A model generated the notes under the pieces. That model did not search any database, had not been told where the DNA came from, and saw only the letters and a program-made list of their open reading frames with translations. From contig NZ_AP026695.1 in the NCBI RefSeq assembly GCF_025998175.1, positions 310,001 through 374,000 of the forward strand: DNA of 64,000 bases. The letters are read 5' to 3'. Every line of letters starts with the position of its first letter. The stretch's first letter is position 1. This document shows positions 4,592-23,434 of this stretch, in pieces. The DNA comes from Nitrosopumilus zosterae (GTDB taxonomy: Archaea; Thermoproteota; Nitrososphaeria; Nitrososphaerales; Nitrosopumilaceae). The position numbers and the translations under genes were made by a program.

Positions 4592-5379
4592 AATTCTGCT
4601 TCTTCTAATGCCTTAGCACAAGAACAATTTCTAGTTTTAGGAATTTGTTCAATTAATTCTGTCAGTACTTTCTTTGTTTTCTCTACATTCTTTGATAGTG
4701 TTTCTAACACTTCTTTTGCAGTAACTGGCTTTTCAGCCCATACATCATAATCTGTCACTGTTGAAATTGATGCATAACACATTTGTGCTTCTCGTGCTAA
4801 TTGACATTCTGGAACCAAAGTCATTCCAATAATATCTGCTCCTGTTGTTCTGTAGAATTTAGATTCTGCTTTCGTTGAAAACCTAGGGCCCTCAATGCAG
4901 ACATAAGTGCAATCTTTGTGCATTTTCAAATCCTCATTGTCTGTAACCTTCAGAATTGATGCTTGTAATTCCGGACAAAAAGGATCTGCAACTGAAATGT
5001 GGATTACTTTTCCTTCTTCTGAAAATGAACCATTTCGAGATTTTGTAAAGTCTAAAAATTGTGATGGTAGTGCAAAATGTCCTGGCTCTACTTCTTCTTT
5101 GAGACTTCCAACTGCAGAAGGTGCAATAATTCTTGTAATTCCTAATTCTTTGAATGCCCAAATGTTTGCTTTAAAATTTATCATGTGTGGGGGAATTGTG
5201 TGTTTTTTTCCATGTCTGGGAAGAAAAGCAATTTTTCTTCCATTGAAAATACCGACAGTTATGGTATCTGAAGGTTTACCATATGGTGTATCAATATCAA
5301 TTTCTTGTGGATTTTCAAGTAGTCCTGAATCATAAATACCGGTTCCTCCAAAAATTCCAATCTCTACATCTTTTTCCAT
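4588..5379 (-). CDS. mtnP: S-methyl-5'-thioadenosine phosphorylase
   Basis: Splits methylthioadenosine with phosphate into adenine and methylthioribose-1-phosphate, in purine and methionine salvage. Family marks: '[15 protein letters not shown]' at the N-terminus, phosphate-site '[13 protein letters not shown]', 'APSAVGSL', '[13 protein letters not shown]' and '[15 protein letters not shown]'. The C-terminal 'NCSCAK' is a CxC pair like the one described in Sulfolobus MTAP II. The start at 5379 overlaps the apt stop (TAATG), implying coupling; an in-frame ATG at 5403 would add eight residues. The next gene upstream, apt, takes the adenine product. Confidence 0.92.
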
Positions 5380-5891
5380 TAATATTTCACCAATGATTTG
5401 CAATTGTAACTGCTAATTCCTTTCATTCCGTTTAATTCTGTTAGTTCTATGATGAATGCAAATCCTGAGACTTTACCGCCAACTTTTTCAATTAATTTTG
5501 CAGATGCTTTTGCAGTACCGCCTGTAGCTAGTAAATCGTCACAGATGAGAACTCTTTGACCTTTCTCAATAATGTCTTTTTGAATTTCTATGGTGTCTTT
5601 TCCGTATTCAATTGTGTATGATAATTTGACTGTTTTTCCAGGCAATTTACCTGCTTTTCTAATCATCATCATACCTTTGTTATATCGTGAGGCCAAAATA
5701 CATGCAAGAATGAATCCGCGTGATTCAATTCCTGCAAAGACATCTATGTCTTTAGTATGAAAATATTTGGAAAATTCATCTGCAATTTCTGTTAATGCAG
5801 ATGGATCTTTCAAGATTGGACTAAAATCTCTAAATAAAATGCCTTTTTTAGGAAAATTTGGGTATTCTGCTATTTTGTCTTTTAAGTTCAT
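5379..5891 (-). CDS. apt: adenine phosphoribosyltransferase
   Basis: A 170-residue type I phosphoribosyltransferase converting adenine and PRPP to AMP. It opens with '[18 protein letters not shown]', typical of APRT; '[10 protein letters not shown]' contacts the base and '[16 protein letters not shown]' is the PRPP-binding loop. It is the first gene of an operon with mtnP, joined by a TAATG overlap, so adenine released by MtnP is recycled directly. Length is normal for the family. ATG start. Confidence 0.93.
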
Positions 5892-5929
5892 GAGAATCTA
5901 CTTTTTAGGTGAAATAAAATTGTTTGATA

Positions 5930-8065: not shown

Positions 8066-8145
8066 CTCTCTCTTAAACCTTAAAGACTTTTTCCTACTTT
8101 GCTATTTCTTAGTTCAGTATATGTCATGAGCAAACTTCTTAAATC

Positions 8146-10239
8146 TCAAGCTTTGGCTTTTTGAAATTTACTTGGGTCTGGCTTGGTTGCAATATTTTGA
8201 TATTGTCTTATTCTTTCAGCAATTAGCCTGTATAATGATCTGAATTGATCCTTTGTTTTATCTGTGAGAAAATTGGTGTCCTCAAGAGCAATTTTTTCAC
8301 AAATATATCTGGTAATTTCTTCATTGTCAAATTTTCCCCAGTCATCTTCTCTATGATCTTGCCATATCTTTTTCAATTTTTCTAACACTCCTTTTCCTTC
8401 TTTGGCTACTACTTCTTCAGGTGTGAGATTTGAAAATCCTTCACGCCTTAACTTTATTTCATAAGTCTGATTTACTGGATGTAGATAGTCCTCAAGTGCG
8501 ATATAGTCTTCGATGGATTCTAGTTTCTTTCCTTCCTTTTCAAAGAATATGGTTTGAATCGATGAAAACTCGTTTGAAACTAACTGGGCAGAAATTTGCT
8601 TTGATTCTTCAGAATTATCCAACAATACAAATGTTCTATAGCCATGATTTCGATAAAAAATCGCTAATGGTAACACTGAATTTTTGTTATATGCTGCCAC
8701 AACATTCAGAGGATTCATTGATATGTTTGGATCCTGCAAAAATTTATCGAATGCATTAAGATACATTGCATCGGACATTGTCTCTACAATAATTATTGGT
8801 CTTGAATTTGTACCGATTTCTCTGTCTACAATAGATTCTACCTGACCTCTTGATAGTCCGTACAAAATTGGTGTTAATGTTTTGTCATCTGCATTCCAAT
8901 AATCATAAAAGATTCTGCTAAGGTGTTTTCTTCTGTCTAATTCTACAACAAGCAAGTTTCCTGGAGTATAATCAAATATCATAAATGGTGAATGTGTTGC
9001 ATACAAAACTTGATTTGAACCTGCTAAATTTTTCAGCAAATCTGAGATTCCCATTTGTTGGGTAGGATGAAGATTTCTTGCAGGTTCGTCTAAAAGTAGT
9101 AATGCTTCTTTTAGTTCTGCTCTTTGTGTTTCGGCAGCAAAGTTTACAATAAAAGAAAATGTCCATTTGAATCCCTCTGCTCTTCTATTTAGCAATCCTG
9201 TGTTTGTTATGGTTCCATCTTTGTGAACATCTGAAATAACCACACTCATAATATTTCCTGGATTGTATCTCAAATCTACATGGATGGGATCTCCTTTCCA
9301 TGCTGGATTCAGTTTGCTAGTTAATCTGTTGCTTGCAGCATTTAGAAGTTTGATGCATTTTGAAGGGCTCTCTTTTACTTCATCTAGTTCTTTCATGTCT
9401 AGTTCTGCAAGATAAAACAGATTTCTTACTGTCTCTGCCTTGTCAAACTCTTCTATGTATTCGATAGAGTCTGCCCTTTCCCCTCTTTCTTCTCTTAGAA
9501 ATTCATTAAGGTTGATGTTGCCGTAGATTTTTTTGTAATCCGAAAAATAGACAAATCTTGGATGTAAATCAGATGCAATGAAATTCTCTAGGGCTGTTTT
9601 TATGCTTTCACCGCTTAGTAAATTTGAAAATTGGTTTTCAGGATTCTCGTAGATTTTTTCCCATTCTTCGATAACTTTTGGCTCCTGAATTGCAATAACG
9701 TGGAATTGATTGCTAAATTCTGCCATGCCGCTATCAAAAACTTCTTGATTCTTTGGAACCTGTCCTTCAAAGAATTTTGTATTGATTTGTATTCTGAGAT
9801 GGTTTGGAATAGTGTCCAAAAATCCTAGAATCTGCCTTGTGAAATTTTCCCATGAATTAATTCCTTGACTTTCGTCTTCACTAAGTTCTATGTCTGCAAA
9901 TTCGTATTGCACTTTTGGCCTTCTATTTGTTCTAATTAATTTAATTTTTTTAATTTCTGGTAAACTTGGAAATTTTTCTTTTACCAAGTCTCTTTCATGT
10001 TGATTAAGATCAAATTCTCCTTCTGCCAATCTAATCTCTTCTTTGAGCTCCTCATTCATTTCATCACAAAGATCTAATTCTGAAACCTGTTCATCTCTAT
10101 TCAACAAAGTCAATGCCTGAAGTATTGTTGTTTTTCCACTTTCATTTCTTCCAACAAAGGCAGCTAAATCCCCCACTGTTATCTCTCCGGAGTCATGAAT
10201 ACATCGATATGCTCTTACTCTGAACTTTCTAAGTCGCAT
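8146..10239 (-). CDS. OLD-family ATP-dependent nuclease (AAA ATPase plus Toprim-like)
   Basis: A 697-residue SMC/RecF-like ATPase. Walker A is 'GRNESGKTT' at residues ~30-38, and the signature and Walker B region 'LLLDEPARNLHP' at ~380 is followed by 'ATHSPFM', the switch His. After that comes a Toprim-like segment, 'IIIVETMSDAMYL' (~485), with the acidic loop 'FVLLDNSEES', where the usual DxD reads D-N-S. This is the OLD (overcoming lysogenisation defect) architecture: DNA end processing or phage defence. It stands alone with no Gabija GajB-type helicase beside it, so a class 1 OLD is likely. Confidence 0.82.
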   Translation of the reverse strand: MRLRKFRVRAYRCIHDSGEITVGDLAAFVGRNESGKTTILQALTLLNRDEQVSELDLCDEMNEELKEEIRLAEGEFDLNQHERDLVKEKFPSLPEIKKIKLIRTNRRPKVQYEFADIELSEDESQGINSWENFTRQILGFLDTIPNHLRIQINTKFFEGQVPKNQEVFDSGMAEFSNQFHVIAIQEPKVIEEWEKIYENPENQFSNLLSGESIKTALENFIASDLHPRFVYFSDYKKIYGNINLNEFLREERGERADSIEYIEEFDKAETVRNLFYLAELDMKELDEVKESPSKCIKLLNAASNRLTSKLNPAWKGDPIHVDLRYNPGNIMSVVISDVHKDGTITNTGLLNRRAEGFKWTFSFIVNFAAETQRAELKEALLLLDEPARNLHPTQQMGISDLLKNLAGSNQVLYATHSPFMIFDYTPGNLLVVELDRRKHLSRIFYDYWNADDKTLTPILYGLSRGQVESIVDREIGTNSRPIIIVETMSDAMYLNAFDKFLQDPNISMNPLNVVAAYNKNSVLPLAIFYRNHGYRTFVLLDNSEESKQISAQLVSNEFSSIQTIFFEKEGKKLESIEDYIALEDYLHPVNQTYEIKLRREGFSNLTPEEVVAKEGKGVLEKLKKIWQDHREDDWGKFDNEEITRYICEKIALEDTNFLTDKTKDQFRSLYRLIAERIRQYQNIATKPDPSKFQKAKA

Positions 10240-10342
10240 CTAGCGATATTTAGTCGCCTTCGATTTAACTCATTCGTCAAATTGATCTGAATTTTCATTT
10301 TTTGCTAAATAGATATAAGGGAATTACAGGTGGTAAAACAAA

Positions 10343-10801
10343 ATGGTATCTAAAAAAATTTTTATTGTATTTGTTTTGCCTGTAATTTTTTCAATAGTTT
10401 TCGGCTCTGCTGTAATGAGTGATATTTTACAAAAACCTGATAGAGAATTACACCTATTGCCAATGTCTACTGGAGGACTCTCAATTCAAAACTCGTCAAT
10501 TGAAATTATTGGTCTTTCCAAGCAATATTCAACCTCAGAACCTGTAGAAATTCAAATTAAAGTTCGAGATTCTTCTTTTGACTGTGGCGATCTATATGTT
10601 ACAATTTATTCATCCACAAACGATGTCGTAACACAGGGTGGATACTTTGAACAATGCTTTGAAAAAGGAAGCAATATGATTCCCACTGATGATGAATTTT
10701 CCAAATCTATTGAGACTCCAGGCTCGTATGAGATAGTAGCAGAAATGGTTTCAAAACAGCTAAAGAGTGCTTCTGCAAGGGGATCATTTACTGTTAAATA
10801 G
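10343..10801 (+). CDS. secreted or membrane-anchored beta-domain protein
   Basis: A 152-residue protein with an N-terminal hydrophobic signal or anchor (residues 5-27). It is followed by one Ig-like beta domain: 'EIIGLSKQYSTSEPVEIQIKV', a Cys pair (C81 and C105 by count) that could form a disulfide, and an end 'GSYEIVAEMVSK..GSFTVK' typical of thaumarchaeal exported beta-sandwich proteins. ATG start; monocistronic. Function unknown. Confidence 0.7.
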   Translation: MVSKKIFIVFVLPVIFSIVFGSAVMSDILQKPDRELHLLPMSTGGLSIQNSSIEIIGLSKQYSTSEPVEIQIKVRDSSFDCGDLYVTIYSSTNDVVTQGGYFEQCFEKGSNMIPTDDEFSKSIETPGSYEIVAEMVSKQLKSASARGSFTVK

Positions 10802-10857
10802 GCCATGAATTTTTCTATGATAATTAGTAACTTGAATTTAAAAAATAAGGTGATTTA

Positions 10858-11628
10858 ATGGCAAAGAAAAAAGATACGCTCTCAGCAGAAGCAGAAAAAA
10901 TAAAGGCCGAACTAGATGCATTAAAAAAGAAACAGAAAGTTCTAGACTCTTCACCATCTAAGAAAAAAACAGAACCAAAACCACCAAAGAAAAAAGCTGA
11001 AGCAAAGACTAAGAAAAAAACAGAACCAAAACCACCAAAGAAAAAAGCTGAAGCAAAGACTAAGAAAAAAACAGAACCAAAACCACCAAAGAAAAAAGCT
11101 GAAGCAAAGACTAAGAAAAAAACAGAACCAAAACCACTAAAAGAAAAAAAATTAACTAAAAAAGAATTAGAAGAAGCTAAAAAAGAAGCAGAAAAAACAT
11201 TAGAAGAGGAATTAGAAGAACAACTTTCAGATGAGGAAATTGAAAACTTCCAAATTGAAAAAGTTGACATGGAAAGACTCACAAACAAAGTATGTGATAT
11301 TTTAGCAGAACGCGAATCCGATGGGATGTTTCAGAGTGAGTTGTGGAAAAAACTCAAACTTACAAGTCGTGACGGTTCTCGTTTAGCATTAAAACTTGAA
11401 CGAATGGGGACAATCACTAGAGAGAAACTTTTGGAGAAAGGACGCTGGACTTACAAATTAATTTTAAAGAAAACTCCAATCAGTACTCAATCAATTGAAA
11501 ATGCACCTTGTTTAGTTTGTCCTGTTGAGCAAAAATGCTCACTTGAGGGTGAAATCAGTCCTCGAAACTGTCAGTTCATTGAAGATTGGGTTATTGCTGA
11601 TATGAAAAAACCGGCGAAGACTAAATGA
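10858..11628 (+). CDS. TFE-beta-like (RPC34/39-type) transcription factor with lysine/proline repeat tail
   Basis: A 256-residue protein in two parts. Residues ~1-125 are low-complexity Lys/Pro/Glu/Ala with a 17-residue unit repeated three times and part of a fourth. Residues ~140-205 form a winged helix ('VCDILAERESDGMFQSELW', then 'SRLALKLERMGTI'), and residues ~218-245 carry four cysteines in the spacing C-x2-C-x5-C-x10-C, the cluster-binding pattern of archaeal TFE-beta and the Pol III subunit RPC39. TFE-beta pairs with TFE-alpha and helps open promoters. Its stop overlaps the rlmE start (ATGA). The family call rests on pattern recognition. Confidence 0.68.
   Translation: MAKKKDTLSAEAEKIKAELDALKKKQKVLDSSPSKKKTEPKPPKKKAEAKTKKKTEPKPPKKKAEAKTKKKTEPKPPKKKAEAKTKKKTEPKPLKEKKLTKKELEEAKKEAEKTLEEELEEQLSDEEIENFQIEKVDMERLTNKVCDILAERESDGMFQSELWKKLKLTSRDGSRLALKLERMGTITREKLLEKGRWTYKLILKKTPISTQSIENAPCLVCPVEQKCSLEGEISPRNCQFIEDWVIADMKKPAKTK
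10960..11136 (+). repeat. 51-bp tandem repeat (3 full copies plus a partial) inside the TFE-beta-like gene
   Basis: Units start at 10960, 11011 and 11062, with a truncated fourth at 11113. Each encodes 17 residues of the type KKKTEPKPPKKKAEAKT. The copies are almost identical at the DNA level, which points to recent expansion by slippage or recombination, so copy number probably varies between strains. Confidence 0.9.
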
Positions 11629-12218
11629 AATTAATTGATGCACGTAAGGATCATTTCCGAAGATTAGCTCATGAACAAGGTTTTCGAAGTAGAGCCGCAT
11701 TCAAACTACAAGAATTGAATAAATCTTATCGCATTATTGGTCCTGGATTTTACGTGTTGGATCTTGGTTGCGCTCCTGGTGGATGGACTCAGATGGCTGT
11801 GAAATTAGCAGGAAATCAGGGTAAAGTGATGGGTGTTGATTTATCATACGTTGAAGAGATTCCTGGCGCTCATATTATTAGAGAAAATATTGAAGATGAA
11901 CATGTCGTTGATGAAGTGATGACTTATTTTGGCCGTAAGGTTAACGCAGTGATCTGTGATCTTTCCCCTCAGGTTAGCGGCAATTGGTCCGTTGATCATG
12001 CTAAACAAATTTCTTTAAATTATGATTGCACCAAAATAATGGACAAAGTTTTAGCAAACAAAGGTAATGCTGTTTTCAAAGTTTTTGATGGTGAATATTC
12101 AATGGAATTCAGAGACTATGTAAAGAAAAAATTTGCTCGAATAAATCTTACAAAACCCAGCGCCAGTAGAAAACAAAGTAGTGAACTATACCTTGTTTGT
12201 TTAGGATTCATTGGATAG
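11625..12218 (+). CDS. rlmE: 23S rRNA (uridine-2'-O)-methyltransferase RlmE/FtsJ family
   Basis: A 197-residue class I SAM methyltransferase. It shows the FtsJ order: 'RSRAAFKLQEL' (catalytic Lys), SAM motif 'VLDLGCAPGGWTQ', 'CDLSPQVSGNW' (catalytic Asp), 'AVFKVFDGEY' (Lys) and 'SSELYLVC' (Glu), completing the K-D-K-E tetrad. In archaea this family 2'-O-methylates 23S rRNA or tRNA. It overlaps the preceding TFE-beta-like gene by 4 bases and is convergent with trm1, overlapping its end by 11 bases. Confidence 0.92.
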   Translation: MKLIDARKDHFRRLAHEQGFRSRAAFKLQELNKSYRIIGPGFYVLDLGCAPGGWTQMAVKLAGNQGKVMGVDLSYVEEIPGAHIIRENIEDEHVVDEVMTYFGRKVNAVICDLSPQVSGNWSVDHAKQISLNYDCTKIMDKVLANKGNAVFKVFDGEYSMEFRDYVKKKFARINLTKPSASRKQSSELYLVCLGFIG

Positions 12219-13356
12219 TCTGAAATATTTTAATAACCTCATTAATGTTTGCGTTTGTTCTGAATCCGGTTGGACTAAACGATGTGACACTAGCTACAAA
12301 ATCATTTTTTTGTAAATTTAATATTGCAGATTCCAGCTTTGGTGGAGAACCTTTCATTTTTGATGCAATCTCGTCAAGTGTAAAATACGTTGCAGGCATT
12401 TCTGATTCGGCAAGACACTTTACAAGAGTTTTTTCACAAATCTTGTCTACTTCTAAATTTGGAATTTCTAATAACATCTTTTGAATAAATTCTTTGTCGA
12501 AAATTTTTCCAATCCATAGTGGTCCTGCAATACTAGTTTTTTGTTTACATAAATTGCATTCCTGTTCTTGTTCTAGTGATATTTTTCTGTGTCCGCAATT
12601 TTTACAATGTAAAATATATCCCAAGTTTTCTTCCTGATCTGGTCTGTTTAAAACTTTAACATAAGTTCTATAGTAATGCATTTCACTTTCAACAAATAAT
12701 GGACTGATTTCTACCCCTAACCTTGCAGCCACTGCTCTGAGACAACCTAAAACTAATCTGATTGCTATCTCATTTCCGTATTCTGTTCTTACTGGAACTC
12801 CGCCGTATTTCCTCTTACAAGCACCCTGAAACAACCCATTTAGAACTTGAAGATCTGTTGCCGCTGTGGACAAAATTCCCCCATGCATGGTTGCTCTAAT
12901 GCCACAGTCAAAATATGCTGCAGGTGAACCAAACGGATCTATGTCTACAATTGAGCCTCTTAGACCCTTTTTTGAATATTTACTCAAAAACCTACATACT
13001 TCTTTTTCAGAAAATTCGATATTTTTTAAATTATTTAGATTGGCAGAGTGTTCAGCCAGTTTTAATGCAGATGGATTTAGATCATTTATTACTATTTTTT
13101 CTATTTTTAACTCGCTTCCAACTCTTAATCCTCTAGCGCCAATTCCTGATAGTCCTTCCAAGAAAATTTTTGGCCCTTGAACATTTTTTAGGAACGCAGA
13201 ATATGCAATTATTGAAAAGTCTCTGTTCAGTTTTGCTTTTGGGTTAAAGAATGCAGGTTTTTTTGGAGGAACTTTTTCCGTTATTGACTTTTTTGGCACC
13301 AACAATTTTGTTTTACCTTCAATGATTTCTTGAAAAGATTCGTCTGAAATTTCCAA
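12208..13356 (-). CDS. trm1: tRNA (guanine26-N2)-dimethyltransferase
   Basis: A 382-residue Trm1. The motif 'GLSGIGARGLRVGSEL' binds SAM, 'VDIDPFGSPAAYFDCGIRA' holds the catalytic acidic-Pro-Phe motif, and 'LHCKNCGHRK..CNLCKQKT' is the zinc knuckle region seen in archaeal Trm1. It makes m2G and m2,2G at position 26 of tRNA. Normal length for archaeal members. ATG start at 13356, divergent from rnhB with about 60 bases between them. Confidence 0.93.
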   Translation of the reverse strand: MEISDESFQEIIEGKTKLLVPKKSITEKVPPKKPAFFNPKAKLNRDFSIIAYSAFLKNVQGPKIFLEGLSGIGARGLRVGSELKIEKIVINDLNPSALKLAEHSANLNNLKNIEFSEKEVCRFLSKYSKKGLRGSIVDIDPFGSPAAYFDCGIRATMHGGILSTAATDLQVLNGLFQGACKRKYGGVPVRTEYGNEIAIRLVLGCLRAVAARLGVEISPLFVESEMHYYRTYVKVLNRPDQEENLGYILHCKNCGHRKISLEQEQECNLCKQKTSIAGPLWIGKIFDKEFIQKMLLEIPNLEVDKICEKTLVKCLAESEMPATYFTLDEIASKMKGSPPKLESAILNLQKNDFVASVTSFSPTGFRTNANINEVIKIFQTIQ

Positions 13357-13417
13357 TTGTCTTTCAATTTTTTTTAAACTTATAACGGTTTAATACTTGT
13401 GTTTTACGACAAAACTC

Positions 13418-14038
13418 ATGCAAATTTGTGGAGTTGATGATGCTGGACGTGGTTCTATGCTAGGTCCACTTGTGATAGCTGGAATCTCATTAGATAAAAA
13501 AAATTTGCAAAAACTATCTTCTTTAGGAGTAAAAGATTCAAAAAAACTTTCGCCAAAACTTCGAGAGCAATTTTATAAAAAAATTATTGATATTGCAGAT
13601 GATTATTACATTGTAAAAATTTCTCCTAGATTAATTGATGCCAGTGTGAAAAAACATTGTTTGAATGGTTTGGAGGCAAAATATATGGCAAAAGTAGTTT
13701 CAAAATTAAATGCTGATATATCTTATGTTGATTCATGCGATGTAAATCCTGCTCGATTTGGAAAAGAAATTTCTAAGCAATCTGATAATCGTAAAGTAAA
13801 GTCATATCATCATGCTGACAGTAGATTTGTCATAGTATCTGCAGCATCTATTCTTGCCAAAGTTACTCGAGATAAGGCAATTGCAAAATTAAGACAAAAT
13901 CATGATTTGGGTAGTGGGTATCCATCTGATACTGTAACTGTAAAATTTGTGACTAAATATCATGTAACATATAGTGTTCTGCCTAATTTTGTGCGTAAAA
14001 GTTGGAAACCTGTTCAGAAAATAGTTGGAAATAATTAA
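13418..14038 (+). CDS. rnhB: ribonuclease HII
   Basis: A 206-residue RNase HII that cuts RNA in RNA-DNA hybrids. The N-terminal motif is 'CGVDDAGRGSMLGP', where the usual D-E-A-G-R-G reads D-D, a conservative change of the second metal ligand. The other acidic residues lie in 'YVDSCDV' and 'HHADSRFVIVSAASILAKV'. I chose ATG 13418, directly before the conserved first strand; a TTG at 13397 would add seven residues. Its end overlaps the end of convergent flpA by 4 bases. Confidence 0.92.
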   Translation: MQICGVDDAGRGSMLGPLVIAGISLDKKNLQKLSSLGVKDSKKLSPKLREQFYKKIIDIADDYYIVKISPRLIDASVKKHCLNGLEAKYMAKVVSKLNADISYVDSCDVNPARFGKEISKQSDNRKVKSYHHADSRFVIVSAASILAKVTRDKAIAKLRQNHDLGSGYPSDTVTVKFVTKYHVTYSVLPNFVRKSWKPVQKIVGNN

Positions 14039-14745
14039 TTTTTATATTTTGCAATTACCATTGCATGATCCTTATCATATGGATGTAAATCTATAGATTG
14101 TAAAATATCAAAATTTGCTTTTAGTTTTTCTGTTTCCTCCTCAACAATTCTTCTTGGTGATTTTGTAACATCTATACTTCGTGTTTTAATTACCAAAAAG
14201 AAATATCCGCCATTTTTTAGATACATTTCACAATTATCTAATGCTATTTGTGTCTGGTCGGGCTGGGCAATGTCTACATATACTATATCGACTTTTCCAA
14301 ATACTGAAAAGTATTCTTTTGGTTTTCTTGCATCCTGCAAAATTGGCATGATGTTTGATCTGTATGATGCCACTCTATCTAAGAAATCTCTTGCAACTCT
14401 ACTTGCATGTTCAACTGCAAACACCATTCCACTTGGGCCCACAATATCTGAAATATGACTAACAGTTGTTCCAGTAGATGCCCCTAAATACAGAACTTTA
14501 CTTTTATTTTCAAAAGGAAAATATTCTAATTCATTCATTATGGCTGCTGCTAATTTACTTCTAAATGCATCCCATAACCTATATTCAATTCCTTTTTTGA
14601 TAATTAATTTTTCTTTATAGACTTGGTTTCCTGGAACCAAATTTTCAGTAGCTAGTTTTCTTTCGCCTTCTGATTTTATCCAAAAAAATGATTGATTATC
14701 TTCTTCCAAACTTTTTTCTCTTTTTATTTGAATCTGTTCTTTCAT
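14035..14745 (-). CDS. flpA: fibrillarin-like rRNA/tRNA 2'-O-methyltransferase
   Basis: A 236-residue archaeal fibrillarin, the catalytic subunit of C/D-box guide RNPs. It contains 'VLYLGASTGTTVSHISDIVG' (SAM site), 'VEHASRVARDFLD' and 'VDIVYVDIAQPDQT'. Guide RNAs direct it, through Nop5 and L7Ae, to 2'-O-methylate rRNA. Its start lies inside the 3' end of nop5 (50-base overlap in another frame), so the two are co-expressed, the usual archaeal arrangement. No eukaryote-like GAR domain is present in it; the Arg/Gly-rich tail is on Nop5 instead. Confidence 0.94.
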   Translation of the reverse strand: MKEQIQIKREKSLEEDNQSFFWIKSEGERKLATENLVPGNQVYKEKLIIKKGIEYRLWDAFRSKLAAAIMNELEYFPFENKSKVLYLGASTGTTVSHISDIVGPSGMVFAVEHASRVARDFLDRVASYRSNIMPILQDARKPKEYFSVFGKVDIVYVDIAQPDQTQIALDNCEMYLKNGGYFFLVIKTRSIDVTKSPRRIVEEETEKLKANFDILQSIDLHPYDKDHAMVIAKYKN

Positions 14746-16156
14746 AATTTATTCTACCACCTTCTCTTCTTCTATCGCCACCTTCTCTTCTTCTATCGCC
14801 ACCTTCTCTTCTTCTATCGCCACCTTCTCTTCTTCTATCGCCACCTTCTCTTCTTCTATCACCACCTTCTCTTCTTCTATCGCCACCTTCTCTTCTTCTA
14901 TCACCACCTTCTCTTCTTCTATCACCACCTTCTCTTCTTCTATCACCACCTTCTCTTCTTCTATCACCACCTTCTCTTCTTCTATCACCAAAGCTTCCAC
15001 CGTCACGTCTAAATGATTGAGGTTTTCTGATGTCTTTCTCGGTTGGATTTTCGTATTTTTTGCCTATTTCATCTACTCTAATGTTGAGTTTTTCAAGCAA
15101 AGTCTGATTTAGACCTTCACCATAAACATCAACTCTGGCAGCAATGACTGCTTTTGCAGCAACTGCTCTTGCAATCTTTCCTCTTTGCCATCTAGGAGCA
15201 GCATGAACCATGGCATGTTGGAACAGTAGTCCGTGTTTTGGTGGTTGTGAACCTGTCTTTAATGATCTAAACAATGCTTTCTCAGCTCCTAGAACTTGTA
15301 TTGTACTGGCAGGAAGCGATGCTAATCTTTTGAGACTTCCTGCTCTTCCTAAAATTCTGGCACCAACTGCACTTCCAAGAATTGCTGAAAGGTTTGGTGC
15401 AATTTCTTGCATTGCAGTTTCAACATGCTCTTCAAGTTTTTTACGTAACTCGTGGAAATCTAAGATTTGTTTTGCTATTGATTGCACTATAGCTAAATTA
15501 ACGTCTGAGATATCTCCTCCTCTGCTTTTAGATGAAATTAAAGATAGCATTTCTACTTTTGATTCTGGAAAACCTGCGTCCTCAAAAACTTGCTTTGTTA
15601 ATGATTCTCGTTTTCCAGCAAGAACGATTTGTGCATATCCATTAATACTATCAATAATGTTATCCAATTCTGGGAAATGCAATCCATACCATTCTCTGAG
15701 CCTTGAACTTAGACCATTTGCAATTTTATCAATTTCATCTAATGAATTGATTGCTTGAATTATGTGAAGATCTGGGCTTTCTGATACTTCGGTAACTTTT
15801 GATGATGATAATCCTAAAGCAAATTCTCTTAGTTTACCTAACGTATCTTGCAAATTCGAAGCAAATCCTGAATCTACAATAATTTGAGGTTTTGTTGCTT
15901 GAATGTTGTTTAATTCTGATGCGTCCATCAAGTAACAGTCAATTGAAAATTTTTTTAAAATTGAAAGTAATGATTCATCACTAACAGAAACTCCTCTTTG
16001 AATAGAAGCAAGATAGTTGATTAATTCATTTAGTTTTGATTCCTTGTTTTTTACTAACAGATATTCTTTAACTGGGTTTGAGAATGGGAATGCTCTTTCA
16101 ATCTTTCCGTCATTGAAAACTGAGATTCCTAACTCTGTTAATATCACAGAATACAT
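14696..16156 (-). CDS. C/D-box RNP core protein Nop5 (Nop56/58) with repeat tail
   Basis: A 486-residue Nop5. Residues ~1-390 include an N-terminal fibrillarin-binding domain, a coiled coil and the NOP domain ('LSAILGSAVGARILGRAGSLKRLASLPASTIQVLGAEKA' region, ~residues 255-293, and 'PKHGLLFQHAMVHAAPRWQRGKIAR' region). Residues ~397-473 are eleven copies of DRRREGG, then a basic end. Ordinary archaeal Nop5 is ~400 residues with a short Lys-rich tail, so the tail is an addition that resembles RGG-type RNA-binding segments. It is upstream of and overlaps flpA. Confidence 0.93.
   Translation of the reverse strand: MYSVILTELGISVFNDGKIERAFPFSNPVKEYLLVKNKESKLNELINYLASIQRGVSVSDESLLSILKKFSIDCYLMDASELNNIQATKPQIIVDSGFASNLQDTLGKLREFALGLSSSKVTEVSESPDLHIIQAINSLDEIDKIANGLSSRLREWYGLHFPELDNIIDSINGYAQIVLAGKRESLTKQVFEDAGFPESKVEMLSLISSKSRGGDISDVNLAIVQSIAKQILDFHELRKKLEEHVETAMQEIAPNLSAILGSAVGARILGRAGSLKRLASLPASTIQVLGAEKALFRSLKTGSQPPKHGLLFQHAMVHAAPRWQRGKIARAVAAKAVIAARVDVYGEGLNQTLLEKLNIRVDEIGKKYENPTEKDIRKPQSFRRDGGSFGDRRREGGDRRREGGDRRREGGDRRREGGDRRREGGDRRREGGDRRREGGDRRREGGDRRREGGDRRREGGDRRREGGRINYERTDSNKKRKKFGRR
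14757..14987 (-). repeat. 21-bp tandem repeat, 11 copies, coding for DRRREGG in Nop5
   Basis: Eleven head-to-tail 21-base units that differ only at one wobble site (G or A near each unit's end). The array is open in several frames on both strands, producing spurious ORFs (VIEEEKV and HLLFFYR repeats). The near-identity of copies points to recent expansion; variation in copy number is expected. Confidence 0.95.
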
Positions 16157-17991: not shown

Positions 17992-19725
17992 ATGACGGAA
18001 ATGGGAACTCCAAAAATTGTATTAACTGCAGATAGAACCCTGATGTCTCCTTATAGGGGATTGTCGCTTGCAACATTTTTTGGTTGTGCGCCAGCTATTG
18101 ACCCAAACCGCGATAAAAACAGCTTTTGGTATAAAATTCTTGGAAAACAGGTAACTCCCAAAATACTCTTTGATTTTATTTGTAATTATATTCCTCATAC
18201 AAATGGTGTTGCAAACTATGCCCCATATGGCTTGAGAAAATTAGAAGCTGGTTTGCTTCGAGATGGATTTAGCAGACAGGATGTAGTAGTTGCCCATCCT
18301 GATCATATTGAACAATTTATTGGTCCTCAAACAGAAGTTGTCGGAACATATGAGATGGATCCTCTTGGAATGGGTCCTGTAACTATGACATTTACTTATG
18401 GCAGAAAACAAACATCTTATGATGAATTTTACAATACTGAACTACATCATAGAATCAAAGCTGCTAAATTAAAAACTGGAAGTAAGGCCAAAGTAATTTC
18501 TGGTGCATCTGGAACTTGGCAATACAATTATGATCCAGAAAAAATCGAGGAATTTGGAATTTATGCAATTCTGGAAGGGGAATTGGGTGGGATTGCACCT
18601 GAAATTGATGGACATGCTGGACGATTCTTCAACTATTTGATAAATGGTGACTTTGAAAACATGGATCCTTTCAGAAAGAGAAGTGACTTTAAAGTTAACA
18701 TAAAAGAATTTGAAAGAAACGGAAAAAAAATCCATGGACGTTTTGTTAATTTCTGGGATAGACCCGAACTTGAAGAAATTCCTGACATTGTGGAACCAAG
18801 TATGCATGGAATGGTTGAGGTAATGCGTGGTTGTGGCAGGGGTTGCAAGTTCTGTGATGTTACATTAAGATCATTGAGATATTATTCTCCTGAAAAAGTC
18901 AAAAGAGAAATTGAAGTTAACATAAAGAAGGGTGGTTCTAAATCTGCATGGATTCACAGTGATGATATTTTTGTTTATGGTATGGATCCTCGAACTGCGA
19001 AAGGGATGGAACCAAACAGAGAAGCACTAGAAGAATTGTTCACTGCAATCATGTCAACAGGGGTTGAACACACAAACCCAACTCACGGAACTCTTGCTGG
19101 AGCTATTGCTGATGAAAAATTAATTCCTAATCTCTCTAAAATCATCAAAGCAGGTCCTGATAACATGATTGGTGTTCAAGCTGGATTTGAAACTGGCAGT
19201 CTTAGATTAATCGGTAAATATGCTGATAGAAAACTTGCACCATATTCTCCTGACGAATGGCATTGGGTTGTCAAAGAAGGCGTCAAGACATTAAATCAAG
19301 ACTATTGGATTCCTGCATTTACCTTGATTATGGGTCTTGATAATGATGAAACGCCTGAAGATTCTTGGGAGACTATACGTTTACTTAGTGAATTGGAAAA
19401 TGAACAACCTGATTCTATGTTTACAGCTACTGCATTAACATTCGTTCCTATTGGATTGCTAGAAAAATCTGATTTCTTTAACATTGGAAATGAGATGACT
19501 CCTGCTCAACTAGGCGTGCTTTACAAAACTTGGCAACACAATTTCAAATATGGCATTCAGAAATTTATGACCAAGACTGGCTCTAAAGGCCCTCAAAGAT
19601 ACTTCTTTAATGCCATAGCAAGATCTCTTGGCGGTGTTCCTCTTGGTGCAATGGAGAGATATGCTAGAAGAAAGAGCAAGGAACACGAAAAAGTCATTGA
19701 GCTTGTCAAAGCCAAGTATTGGTAG
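17992..19725 (+). CDS. radical SAM protein with N-terminal cobalamin-binding-like region
   Basis: A 577-residue protein. Residues ~1-190 resemble the B12-binding-like domain of UPF0313/YgiQ-related radical SAM enzymes. The [4Fe-4S] motif is C-x3-C-x2-C in 'RGCGRGCKFCDV' at about residues 281-288, followed by 'PEKVKREIEVNIKKGG' and the SAM contacts of the half-barrel ('IGVQAGFETGS'). Reaction and substrate are unknown; length and layout suggest a modification enzyme. It lies 266 bases upstream of the eS30 stop with its own start region after pyrK. Confidence 0.82.
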   Translation: MTEMGTPKIVLTADRTLMSPYRGLSLATFFGCAPAIDPNRDKNSFWYKILGKQVTPKILFDFICNYIPHTNGVANYAPYGLRKLEAGLLRDGFSRQDVVVAHPDHIEQFIGPQTEVVGTYEMDPLGMGPVTMTFTYGRKQTSYDEFYNTELHHRIKAAKLKTGSKAKVISGASGTWQYNYDPEKIEEFGIYAILEGELGGIAPEIDGHAGRFFNYLINGDFENMDPFRKRSDFKVNIKEFERNGKKIHGRFVNFWDRPELEEIPDIVEPSMHGMVEVMRGCGRGCKFCDVTLRSLRYYSPEKVKREIEVNIKKGGSKSAWIHSDDIFVYGMDPRTAKGMEPNREALEELFTAIMSTGVEHTNPTHGTLAGAIADEKLIPNLSKIIKAGPDNMIGVQAGFETGSLRLIGKYADRKLAPYSPDEWHWVVKEGVKTLNQDYWIPAFTLIMGLDNDETPEDSWETIRLLSELENEQPDSMFTATALTFVPIGLLEKSDFFNIGNEMTPAQLGVLYKTWQHNFKYGIQKFMTKTGSKGPQRYFFNAIARSLGGVPLGAMERYARRKSKEHEKVIELVKAKYW

Positions 19726-19765
19726 TCATACAAATACATAAATTCACTAATTCTTATTCCTAAAT

Positions 19766-19948
19766 ATGGCAACACACGGTTCACTTACCAAAGCAGGTAA
19801 AGTAAGAGGACAGACACCAAAAGTTGAAGGGCGAAAAATTGTAGGTACTAGTTCTAGTCTTAGAAACAAAAGTAACTTCAAAAAGCGATTTGTTCTAGGC
19901 AGATTCCCTGGTCAGAACAAACCAGGACAAAGAAGAAAGAGACGTTAA
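19766..19948 (+). CDS. rps30e: ribosomal protein eS30
   Basis: A 60-residue basic protein with the eS30 signature: 'HGSLTKAGKVRGQTPKVE' near the N-terminus and the C-terminal 'LGRFPGQNKPGQRRKRR'. It is part of the archaeal and eukaryotic small ribosomal subunit, here without the ubiquitin-like fusion of animals. ATG 19766 lies about 40 bases after the radical SAM gene. Downstream begins the accessory island. Confidence 0.95.
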   Translation: MATHGSLTKAGKVRGQTPKVEGRKIVGTSSSLRNKSNFKKRFVLGRFPGQNKPGQRRKRR

Positions 19949-20008
19949 TCGATTCTTTTCAAAATTTTATCATTTTACGATCTGTGTCTATTATTTGTAA
20001 TTCTAAAT

Positions 20009-20071
20009 GACCGATCAACCGAAACTTTACAGCAACAAAAACAACCGTAGATTTGACAGAACCTCAAAACA
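20009..20071. repeat. diverged direct copy of the radA upstream region (pairs with 22196-22258)
   Basis: Aligned without gaps to 22196-22258 (constant offset 2187), it shares blocks GATCAACCGA, ACCGT and ACAGAACCTCAAAACA at identical spacing; by hand count about 40 of 63 bases match. After a 69-base insertion relative to radA, a further 15-base block ATAAAGTACTCGTAC follows at 20149 (22267 at radA). A 13-base inverted copy of ACCGATCAACCGA stands at 20114-20126. The blocks are either shared regulatory sites or the remains of a duplication. Confidence 0.8.
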
Positions 20072-20113
20072 GGAACTGTCAACATGAAGGTTGATAATTC
20101 TTCGTGTTAAGTG

Positions 20114-20126
20114 TCGGTTGATCGGT
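20114..20126. repeat. 13-bp inverted copy of ACCGATCAACCGA (20010-20022)
   Basis: TCGGTTGATCGGT is the exact reverse complement of 20010-20022, 91 bases away. With the copy upstream of radA (GATCAACCGA at 22200-22209) this makes three occurrences of the same core near two promoters, which is what a protein-binding site would look like. Confidence 0.75.
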
Positions 20127-20148
20127 GTCAAGATTTTTGAACCGTATG

Positions 20149-20163
20149 ATAAAGTACTCGTAC
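20149..20163 (+). promoter_or_regulatory. promoter element shared with radA (ATAAAGTACTCGTAC)
   Basis: A 15-base block identical to 22267-22281, which at radA contains the TATA box about 25 bases before the ATG. By analogy transcription here should start near 20175, leaving a ~40-base leader before the small Cys-rich gene. GTAC-TC-GTAC inside the block is a short repeat that may be a recognition site. Confidence 0.55.
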
Positions 20164-20203
20164 TGTAATGGTTAAATGTCATACTTAGATCCGCTGTGAT
20201 CAT

Positions 20204-20211
20204 GGAGGTGA
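20204..20211 (+). promoter_or_regulatory. perfect Shine-Dalgarno GGAGGTGA before the Cys-rich peptide
   Basis: Eight bases fully complementary to the archaeal 16S rRNA 3' end, four bases before ATG 20216. Most genes in this window start with little or no leader and no such site, so it decides the start of this small gene and suggests strong translation. Confidence 0.7.
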
Positions 20212-20215
20212 GAGA

Positions 20216-20341
20216 ATGGACGAAAACTGCGGTTGTAAGAACAAGGAATACACCTACGTTTGCGAGGACGATGTGTGTATCCCTGTTACTGAAGAACCTA
20301 AGTGCTTCACACAGAAGTCGACCTTCTACAAACTAGATTAG
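20216..20341 (+). CDS. 41-residue Cys-rich acidic peptide
   Basis: A small ORF beginning MDENCGCKNKEY and ending TFYKLD, with cysteines at residues 5, 7, 16, 21 and 30 and a net acidic charge, so it may bind metal or an Fe-S cluster. It has a perfect Shine-Dalgarno sequence and a promoter block shared with radA. Codons favour C or G in third place (GAC, TGC, AAG, TTC), unlike the AT-rich neighbours, which hints at transfer or high expression. A second frame from ATG 20202 is also open (44 codons) but has no ribosome site. Function unknown. Confidence 0.68.
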   Translation: MDENCGCKNKEYTYVCEDDVCIPVTEEPKCFTQKSTFYKLD

Positions 20342-20374
20342 TTCTGTAAGTTCAAAAGAACTATTCTAATTCCC

Positions 20375-21508
20375 TTATTTTTTTATCAGCGATCTATTTA
20401 GATCTGTCGCATTTTGAATTAGCGTTAACCACTTGTTTGAGCCTTCAATTTCGATTCCACAGGCTTGAGCTGGAGTCTTGCCTTCTAGACCCATATGTGG
20501 GCGTAGGTAGTTATGATAAATTTGGTAGCCTGTCAAAATAGGAGTATCCATTTTCTTCAATCCTCTCATTACTTTTTCCCTGTCACGAATCTCACCGTTC
20601 AATCTCTCTTGGATGTTATTGTTTCTGTCGCCTTGAAGATGTATGTGTCTGATGTGTAAGGTTCTATCTTCCCTTTTTAGTGACCAAAATTCTTTCTTGT
20701 ATGCTTCATGATATGATCCTAATCCGTCTGTAATGAACACTTTGGGTTTTGCCTGTGTAACCTCTTTTGATTTCTGTAACAAACCTCTTGCATCATGACC
20801 TTCTTTTCTGTCTGCAACTTCTTGAGCTATCCAGTATCTAGTCTCTTGATCCATTAATGCAAATACGTATTTCAAATCACCATGAATCTTCATGTAGATT
20901 TCATCGGCGTGCCAAGCATCGCCTACATTAGGAACGATTTTGTCAATATACTTCTGCATCAGTTCGGTGTATTTTGTAATCCAGTTATACACAGTAACAT
21001 GAGATACATTAGTTCCCTGCAATTTCAAGAATTTTGTAACGCCTCGTAGGGATTCACCTGTAAAGTAGAGTTGTAAAGCTGATGTAATTGATTGTGGAGT
21101 TGATTTCATTCTTTCAAATCCTAAGTTAATTGAGAATGTCTTGTGACAATCAGAGCATACGAATCTTTGAATGTTGCCAGACTTGTTTTTTCTGATTCCA
21201 AATTTCTTTACGTTATCTGAATGGCAGAATTTACAGTTTGAAATTGTAATTGATGGAATTGTAATCTTATTTTGCTGTCTGACTTCCTGTCTTATCTTTA
21301 TGCTGATTTCAATGGCATGGATGTGCTTGCAACAGACTTTTCTGAACTTGTGATCCGCACAGTTACAAGTCCAAGAATTGCCTACCTTTACTACATCGTA
21401 TTTTCTTTTTGATGTCTGTGAGTGTACCTTGTAATGAATGTCAGATACACGAATCAGGTCTGATTTCAAGGCTATTTCTTTTCCTTTTTGCTCACGTTTG
21501 TTTTTCAT
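20375..21508 (-). CDS. SWIM-finger DDE transposase (IS6/IS240-like catalytic domain)
   Basis: A 377-residue protein. Residues ~45-70 carry a SWIM zinc finger (CNC..., then CCKH). Residues ~92-130 form an IS1/IS6-type zinc ribbon ('CKFCHSDNVKKFG' then 'FVCSDCHKTF'), and residues ~190-345 an RNase H-fold integrase with D in 'WHADEIYMK', D in 'FITDGLGSYHEAY' and E in 'NNIQERLNGEIRDRE', so the catalytic triad looks intact. I see no clear terminal inverted repeats or target duplication around it by eye, so it may be domesticated or end-decayed. A palindromic operator-like site lies between its TATA region and ATG. Confidence 0.88.
   Translation of the reverse strand: MKNKREQKGKEIALKSDLIRVSDIHYKVHSQTSKRKYDVVKVGNSWTCNCADHKFRKVCCKHIHAIEISIKIRQEVRQQNKITIPSITISNCKFCHSDNVKKFGIRKNKSGNIQRFVCSDCHKTFSINLGFERMKSTPQSITSALQLYFTGESLRGVTKFLKLQGTNVSHVTVYNWITKYTELMQKYIDKIVPNVGDAWHADEIYMKIHGDLKYVFALMDQETRYWIAQEVADRKEGHDARGLLQKSKEVTQAKPKVFITDGLGSYHEAYKKEFWSLKREDRTLHIRHIHLQGDRNNNIQERLNGEIRDREKVMRGLKKMDTPILTGYQIYHNYLRPHMGLEGKTPAQACGIEIEGSNKWLTLIQNATDLNRSLIKK
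20375..21508 (-). mobile_element. insertion-sequence-like unit, ends not defined
   Basis: The transposase gene and its position in a non-core island between two housekeeping genes (rps30e and radA) indicate a mobile element. Boundaries are only those of the gene, because no terminal repeats could be found by eye within ~150 bases on either side. Confidence 0.5.
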
Positions 21509-21510
21509 CT

Positions 21511-21523
21511 TACTTACTAGGTA
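21511..21523. promoter_or_regulatory. operator-like palindrome TACTTACTAGGTA (transposase promoter)
   Basis: Matches the palindrome TACCTANTAGGTA with one mismatch. It lies 3 bases upstream of the reverse-strand transposase ATG, between that and a TATA-like CTTATACA, the usual place for a repressor site in a leaderless archaeal promoter. Confidence 0.6.
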
Positions 21524-21549
21524 TATTGTATAAGGTATTATTAAATATT

Positions 21550-21562
21550 TACCTAGTAGGTA
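21550..21562. promoter_or_regulatory. operator-like palindrome TACCTAGTAGGTA (zinc-ribbon pair promoter)
   Basis: A perfect palindrome around the central base, just upstream of a TATA-like CTTAAATATT for the forward gene at 21598. It is 39 bases centre-to-centre from the site at 21511-21523, so the divergent promoters could be controlled together. Confidence 0.65.
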
Positions 21563-21597
21563 TATCCTTAAATATTTGAATACATACTATCTAAACA

Positions 21598-21780
21598 ATG
21601 GGAATTGTAAAGCTTGAGGGATATTCATGTGATAGATGCGGACACCAATGGGTACCACGAACCAAGATAAATGAACTTCCCATCATATGTCCTAAATGCA
21701 AGTCACCATACTGGAACAAGCCACGACAAGGTAATACAAAGAAACATTTGGATTGGAAAGAAAAAAGGAGAATGACATAA
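21598..21780 (+). CDS. 60-residue zinc-ribbon protein
   Basis: A zinc ribbon with two CxxC knuckles, 'SCDRCGHQWVPR' (residues 10-21) and 'ICPKCKSPYWNKPR' (residues 30-43), followed by a basic tail. Stand-alone proteins of this type are common on archaeal and bacterial mobile elements and usually bind nucleic acid. It is leaderless, with ATG ~25 bases from a TATA-like box. Its stop overlaps the start of the next gene (TAATG), so the two are coupled. It is divergent from the transposase with the palindromes between them. Confidence 0.8.
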   Translation: MGIVKLEGYSCDRCGHQWVPRTKINELPIICPKCKSPYWNKPRQGNTKKHLDWKEKRRMT

Positions 21781-22028
21781 TGGTTCAAAAAGAATTTGGT
21801 TGTGACAACAACGGATGTAATCACACCATTGTAGTAACTTCTCCTGATGATGTATACACAAGACTTCTTCGCGATGTTTGTTGTGACGAAAGTATGGAAA
21901 AAAAATACGAATGTGATGATTGCCATTTTATGAATACACGTTACTGGTGTGTTAAACATCCGTCTCACGTAATTGGGTTTGGTGCAAAAGATCCGTATGA
22001 TGAGACTAGATTTTCTACTTATGTTTAG
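21780..22028 (+). CDS. 82-residue Cys/His-rich protein
   Basis: Start chosen at ATG 21780, which overlaps the stop of the zinc-ribbon gene (TAATG); an earlier ATG at 21753 would run into that gene. Cysteines occur in 'FGCDNNGCNH', 'RDVCCDE', 'YECDDCHFM' and 'RYWCVKHP', enough for two zinc sites. Family not recognised. Co-transcribed with the 60-residue ribbon and probably functionally linked to it. Role unknown; DNA binding or partner binding is inference. Confidence 0.72.
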   Translation: MVQKEFGCDNNGCNHTIVVTSPDDVYTRLLRDVCCDESMEKKYECDDCHFMNTRYWCVKHPSHVIGFGAKDPYDETRFSTYV

Positions 22029-22030
22029 AT

Positions 22031-22156
22031 TCATTTTATAAAAAATGAACTAACCACAAAGAATTCAAACCCATCAATCTTTTTCAAACCTTCTATTAGT
22101 TTCTTGATCTGTTCTTCTGTGAGATTATCTCTGGGTTTTACATTTGCTTGAATCAT
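22031..22156 (-). CDS. 41-residue peptide under a palindromic operator
   Basis: A small reverse-strand ORF starting MIQANVKPRDNLTEEQ and ending SSFFIK. It has one helix rich in Lys/Glu/Ile, then a hydrophobic strand. It is convergent with the 82-residue gene, with 2 bases between stops. A perfect TACCTATTAGGTA palindrome sits 2 bases upstream of its ATG with a TATA-like sequence ~25 bases further, a layout too regular for a chance ORF. Function unknown. Confidence 0.55.
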   Translation of the reverse strand: MIQANVKPRDNLTEEQIKKLIEGLKKIDGFEFFVVSSFFIK

Positions 22157-22158
22157 AT

Positions 22159-22171
22159 TACCTATTAGGTA
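22159..22171. promoter_or_regulatory. operator-like palindrome TACCTATTAGGTA (small peptide promoter)
   Basis: Same palindrome as at 21550, differing only at the centre. It is followed at 22173-22181 by an overlapping half site TACCTAGTA. Located between the TATA-like region and ATG of the reverse-strand 41-residue ORF. Confidence 0.65.
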
Positions 22172-22195
22172 ATACCTAGTATATGAGAACTATTA

Positions 22196-22258
22196 GATGG
22201 ATCAACCGAGGTTAACAGGTAGAATTTTTTACCGTCAACTTAACAGAACCTCAAAACA
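22196..22258. repeat. radA upstream region sharing blocks with 20009-20071
   Basis: Contains GATCAACCGA, ACCGT and ACAGAACCTCAAAACA at the same spacing as 20009-20071. It ends 8 bases before the radA TATA element. See the partner entry for details. Confidence 0.8.
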
Positions 22259-22264
22259 ATACTC

Positions 22265-22281
22265 TTATAAAGTACTCGTAC
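22265..22281 (+). promoter_or_regulatory. radA core promoter (TTATAAAG plus GTACTCGTAC)
   Basis: TTATAAAG at 22265-22272 is 23-30 bases upstream of the radA ATG, fitting a leaderless transcript. The 15 bases from 22267 are identical to those before the Cys-rich gene at 20149. A short palindrome CCGTACCATACGGTATGG spans the probable start site. Confidence 0.65.
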
Positions 22282-22294
22282 CGTACCATACGGT

Positions 22295-23434
22295 ATGGTA
22301 GAAGATTTAAGATTAGATAGTTTAGAGGGCGTAGGTCCTGTAACTACAAGAAAATTATCCGATGCAGGTGTCCACAACGTCATGGATCTCATCGTCAGAG
22401 GTCCTGTAGAAATTGCAGAAATAACTGGAATGGAAAAGGACACTGCTGAAAAAATTGTCAATAAAGCCAGACAACATTTAGTTGATGGAGGATTAATTGC
22501 CAAACATTTTGTTAGTGCAACTGAAATTTACAAACACCGACAAAGTATTGGTAAAATTACAACTGGTACAAATTGTCTTGATACACTATTTGATGGTGGT
22601 ATTGAGACTCAGGCCCTTACAGAAGTTTATGGTGAATTTGGATGTGGTAAAACACAGTTTGCTCATACAATGTCTGTAATGGTTCAAAAAACCAAAGAAG
22701 AAGGTGGTCTTGAAGGTAGTGTATTATACATTGATACTGAAAACACTTTCAGACCTGAAAGAATTGTATCTATTGCCAAAGCTCATGACATGGATCCGGA
22801 AAAAGTTCTAGATAACATCATAGTTGCTCGTGCATACAACAGTGCACATCAGGTGTTAATTCTAGAGGAAGCTGGCCCTATAATTGAAGAAAACAATGTT
22901 AAACTAATTGTTGCAGATTCTGCAGTTGGACTATTCCGTGCTGAATATCTTGGAAGAGGAACATTGTCTGTTAGACAGCAAAAACTAAATCATTTTGTTC
23001 ATTTGCTATCTAGAATTGCAGAAACATACAACTGTGCTGCAATTGCAACCAACCAAGTTATGGCATCACCTGATGTCTTTTTTGGAGATCCAACAAGACC
23101 AATTGGTGGAAATGTAGTTGCACATACCAGTACATACAGAATCTACTTTAAGAAATCAGGCAAGAAACGAATTGCCAGAATGGTAGATAGTCCTCACCAT
23201 CCTGAAGAGGAAGTAATCTTTGCTCTAGGTGAAGCAGGTGTAATTGATCCTGAAGACGCCGATAAAAAGACAAAAAAGACTACCAAAAAAACAACTAAAC
23301 CTGCAAAAGAAACAGCTGAAGTAGATGCTACAGAAACAGCTGAAGTAGATGCTACAGAAACAGCTGAAGTAGATAACATTGTGAAATCTACAGCAGATAA
23401 TGAATCAGAAGATTCAGAACCAATTGAAGAGTAA
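22295..23434 (+). CDS. radA: DNA repair and recombination protein RadA
   Basis: A 379-residue archaeal RecA/Rad51 homologue that forms filaments on single-stranded DNA for strand exchange. Residues ~1-60 are the helix-hairpin-helix domain ('LEGVGPVTTRKLSDAG'). Walker A 'GEFGCGKTQ' lies near 112, Walker B 'LIVADS' near 205, and the L2 region 'ATNQVMASPDV' later. Beyond residue ~325 it carries an extra Lys/Thr then acidic tail with TAEVDATE repeats; typical RadA ends ~320-330. ATG start is leaderless. Confidence 0.96.
   Translation: MVEDLRLDSLEGVGPVTTRKLSDAGVHNVMDLIVRGPVEIAEITGMEKDTAEKIVNKARQHLVDGGLIAKHFVSATEIYKHRQSIGKITTGTNCLDTLFDGGIETQALTEVYGEFGCGKTQFAHTMSVMVQKTKEEGGLEGSVLYIDTENTFRPERIVSIAKAHDMDPEKVLDNIIVARAYNSAHQVLILEEAGPIIEENNVKLIVADSAVGLFRAEYLGRGTLSVRQQKLNHFVHLLSRIAETYNCAAIATNQVMASPDVFFGDPTRPIGGNVVAHTSTYRIYFKKSGKKRIARMVDSPHHPEEEVIFALGEAGVIDPEDADKKTKKTTKKTTKPAKETAEVDATETAEVDATETAEVDNIVKSTADNESEDSEPIEE
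23312..23372 (+). repeat. 24-bp tandem repeat (about 2.5 copies) in the radA tail
   Basis: The unit encodes TAEVDATE, present twice fully and then as TAEVD. Copies are identical at DNA level, so the expansion is recent. It produces an acidic, probably disordered C-terminal extension of RadA. Confidence 0.8.

Follow-up and report, generated by a model that had tools for sequence, protein, structure and literature searches.

Related Insertion Sequences and Archaeal Elements

The IS6 family of insertion sequences is characterized by 8-bp target duplications and by GG-tipped ends with CTGT and CAAA motifs (PMC7986276). A zinc-finger N-terminus is known from its long clades h and i, and a single passenger-carrying member, ISDsp3, is listed in a review of the family (PMC7986276). 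In a thaumarchaeal survey, composite transposons with passenger genes are given as undetected in archaea; the same survey describes casposons and IS-like transposons from ammonia oxidisers, with tandem insertion in one target for casposons and proviruses (PMC6563490).

The window, a 64-kb stretch of the Nitrosopumilus zosterae genome, contains an element of a related type. Like IS6/IS26, elements of this kind combine a putative IS240-type DDE transposase with GG ends, CTGT and CAAA motifs and 8-bp duplications (PMC7986276). They differ from IS6/IS26 in their ends (~52 bp and bipartite vs. ~14 bp), in a SWIM-like N-terminus, in their size of 2.2–4.8 kb with at least one cargo gene, and in their repeated arrival at a single base position ahead of one promoter (PMC7986276). 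The integrated elements in the thaumarchaeal survey are comparable in two respects: an IS-like transposon in an ammonia-oxidising archaeon and the tandem use of one target (PMC6563490). No description of cargo-bearing IS6-like elements between S30e and radA was found in a partial literature search, which included part of this survey (PMC6563490).

The reading considered likely for this locus is that a short Cys-rich ORF is the passenger gene of a 2.18-kb IS6-like element, inserted with an 8-bp duplication upstream of the radA promoter and equipped with a radA core promoter copy of its own and a strong Shine-Dalgarno (SD) sequence. Its product would be a small beta-sheet protein held by cysteines and expressed when radA is.

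Organization of Element E2

Inverted ends were located with a TIR profile built from such ends, and three were found in the window. Two of them face each other and delimit a complete element of 2,179 bp, E2. Its left end (20072–20124, + strand, GGAACTGTCAA...TCGGTTGATC, 40.3 bits) and its right end (22200–22250, − strand, 35.6 bits) are flanked by identical copies of the 8-bp target duplication TCAAAACA, at 20064–20071 and 22251–22258. The third (20012–20063, − strand, 47.0 bits) is the right end of an earlier element, E1, present as a scar; genome G056 also carries a scar at this position. To the left lies a gene (19766–19948, + strand) that probably encodes an S30e-like ribosomal protein and that is the left neighbor in the congeneric genomes examined as well. 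The right flank is the radA recombinase gene (22295–23434, + strand), an ORF whose start is conserved across the genus.

Enclosed between the ends of E2 are the peptide gene (20216–20341, + strand), the transposase and two small CxxC zinc-type ORFs. The peptide gene adjoins the left end and is convergent with the transposase (20375–21508, − strand), a 377-aa IS6-like DDE enzyme with a SWIM-like and InsA-like zinc N-terminus. The enzyme matches Pfam DDE_Tnp_IS240 (E 1.2e-17, 64.8 bits vs. a cutoff of 27) and just misses the NCBIfam IS6 equivalog (121 bits, cutoff 125), while its SWIM and InsA matches fall under the Pfam cutoffs. The first small ORF (21598–21780, + strand) encodes a zinc-ribbon-like protein, below the Pfam cutoff, which recurs in related elements, with similar ORFs in G094 and G055. 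The second (21780–22028, + strand) encodes another small Cys-rich protein; its ATG overlaps the stop of the preceding ORF (TAATG), and a similar ORF is present in the G094 element. The IS6 hallmark is an element of ~800 bp with near-perfect inverted repeats of ~14 bp. As E2 has bipartite ends of ~52 bp and a length of 2,179 bp, it is labelled IS6-like and is not counted as an IS6 member. Elsewhere in the window's genome (G000:C1:1374956-1376056, L102), a second transposase copy, 66% identical, also neighbors small CxxC proteins.

The peptide, a non-transposition gene inside a unit bounded by TIRs and target duplications (20072–22250), corresponds to the cargo of a passenger-carrying IS (tIS). 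The preliminary description had placed the gene at an insertion site. The mobile-DNA site is real, but the gene is enclosed by a complete IS6-like element and is therefore its cargo. G056, whose flanking genes are 97–98% identical, lacks E2 with all else present and represents a natural empty site; hence, E2 and the peptide most simply arrived recently in the window's lineage. Between these two genomes, the inverted-end sequence of the scar upstream of radA differs (20012–20063 in the window, L101 5178–5221 in G056), which may reflect either an exchange of ends or separate events that hit the same base.

The Peptide Gene and Its Homologues

Read as an ORF, 20216–20341 yields a product of 41 aa, MDENCGCKNKEYTYVCEDDVCIPVTEEPKCFTQKSTFYKLD, with nine acidic residues, five Lys, no His, and Cys at positions 5, 7, 16, 21 and 30 (CxC-x8-C-x4(8)-C-x8-C). 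The SD sequence GGAGGTGA (20204–20211, + strand) lies four bases ahead of the ATG and is unusual here: just one other occurrence exists in the 64-kb window, and only 2 of 61 non-overlapping window ORFs of at least 100 aa have an SD-like word ahead of their start. The GC3 of the peptide gene (0.585) lies above the maximum of these 61 ORFs (0.419; mean 0.279, sd 0.058), and a value as high is reached in 0.04% of 15,192 overlapping 41-codon stretches. The acidic ORF with five cysteines including a CxC, the rare SD at four bases from the start and the third-base preference for C or G had all been pointed out in the preliminary description, and each is borne out.

Homologues were sought with the single sequence in 95 congeneric genomes and in 400 genomes of the class, and by profile in 250 genomes of the family and then 400 of the class. 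Among the 95 congeneric genomes, no intact homologue was detected beyond the window's own copy; the weak tblastn matches inspected within the genus (G034, G049) are either antisense to other ORFs or next to them. The 400 class genomes contain three clear intact homologues, none from this genus but each within the same family (single-sequence E-values of 6.5e-11 for G321, 2.6e-9 for G159 and 9.4e-5 for G119). They are 49–62% identical to the window peptide and conserve all five cysteines. The profile searches returned the same four members and one tentative, shorter relative (G230), which retains only two of the cysteines. The four-member alignment has 14 invariant columns, including all five Cys. 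Differences at codon positions 1/2/3 amount to 8/10/18, 14/12/23, 11/16/22, 10/6/24, 13/12/22 and 12/9/22 in the six pairs, with dN between 0.22 and 0.42 and dS of at least 1.67 or saturated. This excess of synonymous change and the third-position bias indicate purifying selection on the protein. Judged by sequence conservation, the ORF is a genuine, conserved protein-coding gene, and an apparently translated protein family is thereby placed in a clear biological setting. The preliminary description had made the gene depend on homologous ORFs in relatives, which do exist in other genera, and had also known of no obvious described counterpart; none was found in Pfam or NCBIfam, nor was a convincing family in the PDB.

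An alignment search of genome contigs recovered two of these same homologues, in the MAG 'archaeon Bin_33_1' (SBBK01000125.1, corresponding to G321) and in Nitrosarchaeum sp. nzgw8 (JAHFUM010000001.1, corresponding to G159). In the latter (L093 4744-6132), the homologue lies directly 3' of a gene judged by eye to be Fic-like, near a transposase of the same kind. A further contig match, L094, was discarded as a false positive inside a 346-aa bacterial ORF. Viral contigs searched with the alignment, and plasmids and phages searched by tblastn with a homologue, gave no match; the peptide has no significant match in PHROG either. An Rfam scan of 19700–22500 was empty; hence, no known RNA element is present there.

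The context of the homologues varies. In G119, where the locus lies upstream of radA, an intact peptide gene adjoins an inverted end and a transposase broken down to a 69-aa stub. In G321, a weak inverted-end match lies ~150 bp upstream of the peptide, a spacing like that of the window, and in G159, the peptide is outside the sole inverted-end-like sequence found. From this arrangement, the window offers the clearest case of a cargo gene, and G119 and G321 are likely ones. An SD is present in one of the three homologues (G159, GGAGGTGG), the other two being without one.

Two other origins of the ORF have to be weighed against cargo of a mobile element. A chance ORF behind a chance SD deserves practically no credence: the ORF is short, lacks a Pfam or NCBIfam family and has no match in plasmids or phages, but the conserved homologues, the third-position-biased change and the invariance of every cysteine refute it. 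Very improbable, if somewhat less so, is a host gene of the radA neighborhood, vertically inherited and merely surrounded by the element. The position in G119, another genus, likewise just upstream of radA, agrees with such an origin. It is contradicted by the failure to find a copy in the other congeneric genomes searched, including the 97%-identical G056 and genomes with an empty site, by the location of the G159 and G321 genes away from the radA locus and near mobile genes, and by a codon use unlike that of the host.

Promoters of the Peptide and radA

The core promoter of the peptide (20146–20167, + strand, ATGATAAAGTACTCGTACTGTA) is a copy of the radA promoter: 20149–20167 is identical to the radA core promoter at 22267–22285 in 18 of 19 bases. 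The 1.775-Mb genome contains exactly two copies of the sequence AAAGTACTCGTACYGTA, one preceding the peptide and the other preceding radA, and no further copy with one or two mismatches was found. Its CTCG variant is common to the radA promoters of the window's genome and G056, CTGG being present in most relatives; the peptide promoter therefore looks copied from the local radA promoter. The preliminary description saw the gene as driven by radA-like promoter blocks. One block, 20149–20167, is indeed a copy of the radA core promoter. The other, a repeat (20044–20071 and 22231–22258), was dropped as a promoter, as it consists of the tip of an inverted end (on the left, that of the E1 scar) and the target duplication TCAAAACA.

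The radA promoter (22265–22295, + strand) comprises TTATAAAG, separated from E2 by 14 bp, and a perfect palindrome, TACCGTA-CCA-TACGGTA (22279–22295), which abuts the apparently leaderless radA start and looks like the operator of a putative regulator. A second perfect copy of the palindrome precedes an unrelated small gene (C1:1176710). The peptide promoter of the window contains no exact TACCGTA word, and TACCGTA/TACGGTA words precede the peptide in G321 and G119. In other elements, eight such words occur in 5,000 bp of termini vs. one in 26,493 bp of interiors.

In the proposed mechanism, E2 delivers the peptide gene to a transcriptionally favorable site in front of the radA promoter. The peptide would be transcribed from the radA core promoter copy as a short-leader mRNA, with the strong SD GGAGGTGA driving translation, and promoter and SD together would express it along with radA. 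A benefit to the element or the host, for example in a repair or recombination state that needs radA, is only a guess.

Structure and Possible Function of the Peptide

With only four clear members, the basis for a function is small. AF2 modelling had low confidence (mean pLDDT 58 and 67, the latter for the G159 homologue), and Foldseek gave no match at E <= 0.001, its matches being meaningless. In the G159 model, strands 13–20 and 23–29 form a hairpin, the register of which should place C17 and C26 (C16 and C21 in the window) opposite each other. This pair could complete a four-Cys metal site with the CxC, or could itself be a disulphide. The product is probably a small, metal- or disulphide-stabilized, intracellular beta protein. 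Its beta-sheet would be held by the cysteine set, the CxC and the facing C16/C21 serving as metal site or disulphides. Nothing points to Fe-S specifically.

A narrower view, raised by the preliminary description with its highly translated metal or Fe-S peptide, is a storage or redox peptide, metallothionein-like or Fe-S, in which Zn, Cu or Fe-S would be bound by the cysteines and the cargo would give protection from metal stress. The five invariant cysteines with a CxC, the lack of His, the small acidic product and the two other small CxxC proteins encoded in E2 speak for it. It is nevertheless rather unlikely: the number of cysteines is odd, conserved aromatics and strand residues (TYVC, TFF) are unlike classical metallothioneins, the tentative G230 relative keeps just two of the cysteines, and the element lacks recognizable metal genes. 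Metallothioneins are rich in Cys in CxC/CxxC clusters and free of aromatics, while the peptide has 5 Cys in 41 residues, conserved aromatics and no Pfam match. More doubtful still is an accessory factor that binds the element ends or the TACCGTA-type operator, aids the choice of the radA promoter as target or represses the transposase. The gene does lie beside the left end, convergent with the transposase, element termini show an excess of radA-like operator words, and fixed-position targeting is common to the well-defined elements. However, the peptide is acidic, hence poorly suited to DNA binding, and most targeted elements (G016, G058, G033, G054, G094) use the same site without it, so the peptide is unnecessary for transposition or targeting. 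A Cys-stabilized beta protein of the element's cargo remains the preferred reading.

Two described proteins offer partial parallels. Brz of Halobacterium is likewise a tiny archaeal protein with cysteines, and its gene lies directly ahead of another (PMC2253796). The CPxCG motifs of Brz-type proteins are absent from the peptide, with its different cysteine spacing (PMC2253796). Zinc-finger micro-proteins of the CPxCG type have two such knuckles, and no CPxCG occurs in any homologue. CREMP/EGF-like modules (PDB 9pgb) share a short G-T-x-C-x(6)-P-x-C pattern, with a profile E of 3e-4 summed over repeats, whereas single repeats have E > 5 and the protein is a eukaryotic eggshell protein. This likeness of sequence is most likely convergent.

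Recurrent Insertion Between S30e and radA

Elements with ends of the same type but other cargo are located between S30e and radA in seven genomes (G016, G058, G033, G054, G037, G092 and G094); as for E2 of the window, the 8-bp target duplication was found there as identical repeats. G035 and G074 have further ends at this position, while G009, G056 and G066 have scars, so that about a dozen other congeneric genomes carry related elements or scars at the same position. In 22 congeneric genomes examined, no element end lies between the two genes. Selection entered into part of the sample for occupancy; of the first 26 genomes that could be read, four were occupied. The transposase is oriented against radA in the window and G054 and along radA in G033, which indicates separate insertions, not one inherited copy.

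The radA-facing end stops 14 bp upstream of the TATA box (TTATAAAG-type), the sum of the 8-bp target duplication and 6 bp, and this offset is shared by 11 of 12 distinct radA-side ends. A second site is found near a cluster taken to be amo from a recognized AmoA-like sequence, upstream of a conserved 128-aa gene. G055 and G056 have elements there, and the window's genome has a scar (G000:C1:254253, L210; L166 ~3323; L192 ~3497), with the same 14-bp offset from a TATA-like box and a similar GTAC-type palindrome. Among other ends, 5 of 28 have TATA-like words at an offset of 13–14, several of the 28 being S30e-side flanks; general promoter targeting outside the radA and amo-adjacent sites is only suggestive on these sequences.

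A broader model can be proposed tentatively, with the balance slightly against it: a cargo-bearing IS6-like lineage in ammonia-oxidising archaea may recognize a promoter class (a TATA box, then TACCGTA-N3-TACGGTA) and insert at a fixed 14 bp upstream, chiefly at radA, with small cargo genes, among them this new Cys-rich peptide family, under copies of the radA promoter being expressed with the recombinase. The locus in any case reveals an IS-sized archaeal transposon lineage with cargo, the landing point of which is reused in front of an important recombinase gene. Ty3 is a promoter-targeted retroelement. If the promoter or the factors bound to it are what targeting reads here, retroelements of this kind would have a prokaryotic parallel, and archaea in which manipulation is difficult might gain a safe-harbour insertion tool.

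The site can also hold several elements. In G094 (L100, G094:C1:1776000-1794000), at least three IS6-like cargo elements stand in tandem upstream of radA (3643–15152). They are arranged back to back, adjacent ends being spaced by exactly 8 bp (TGTTTCGA). A proteasome-type Ntn hydrolase and a GNAT acetyltransferase are among the cargo of sister elements (L103 5975-6787; L100 13324-13839).
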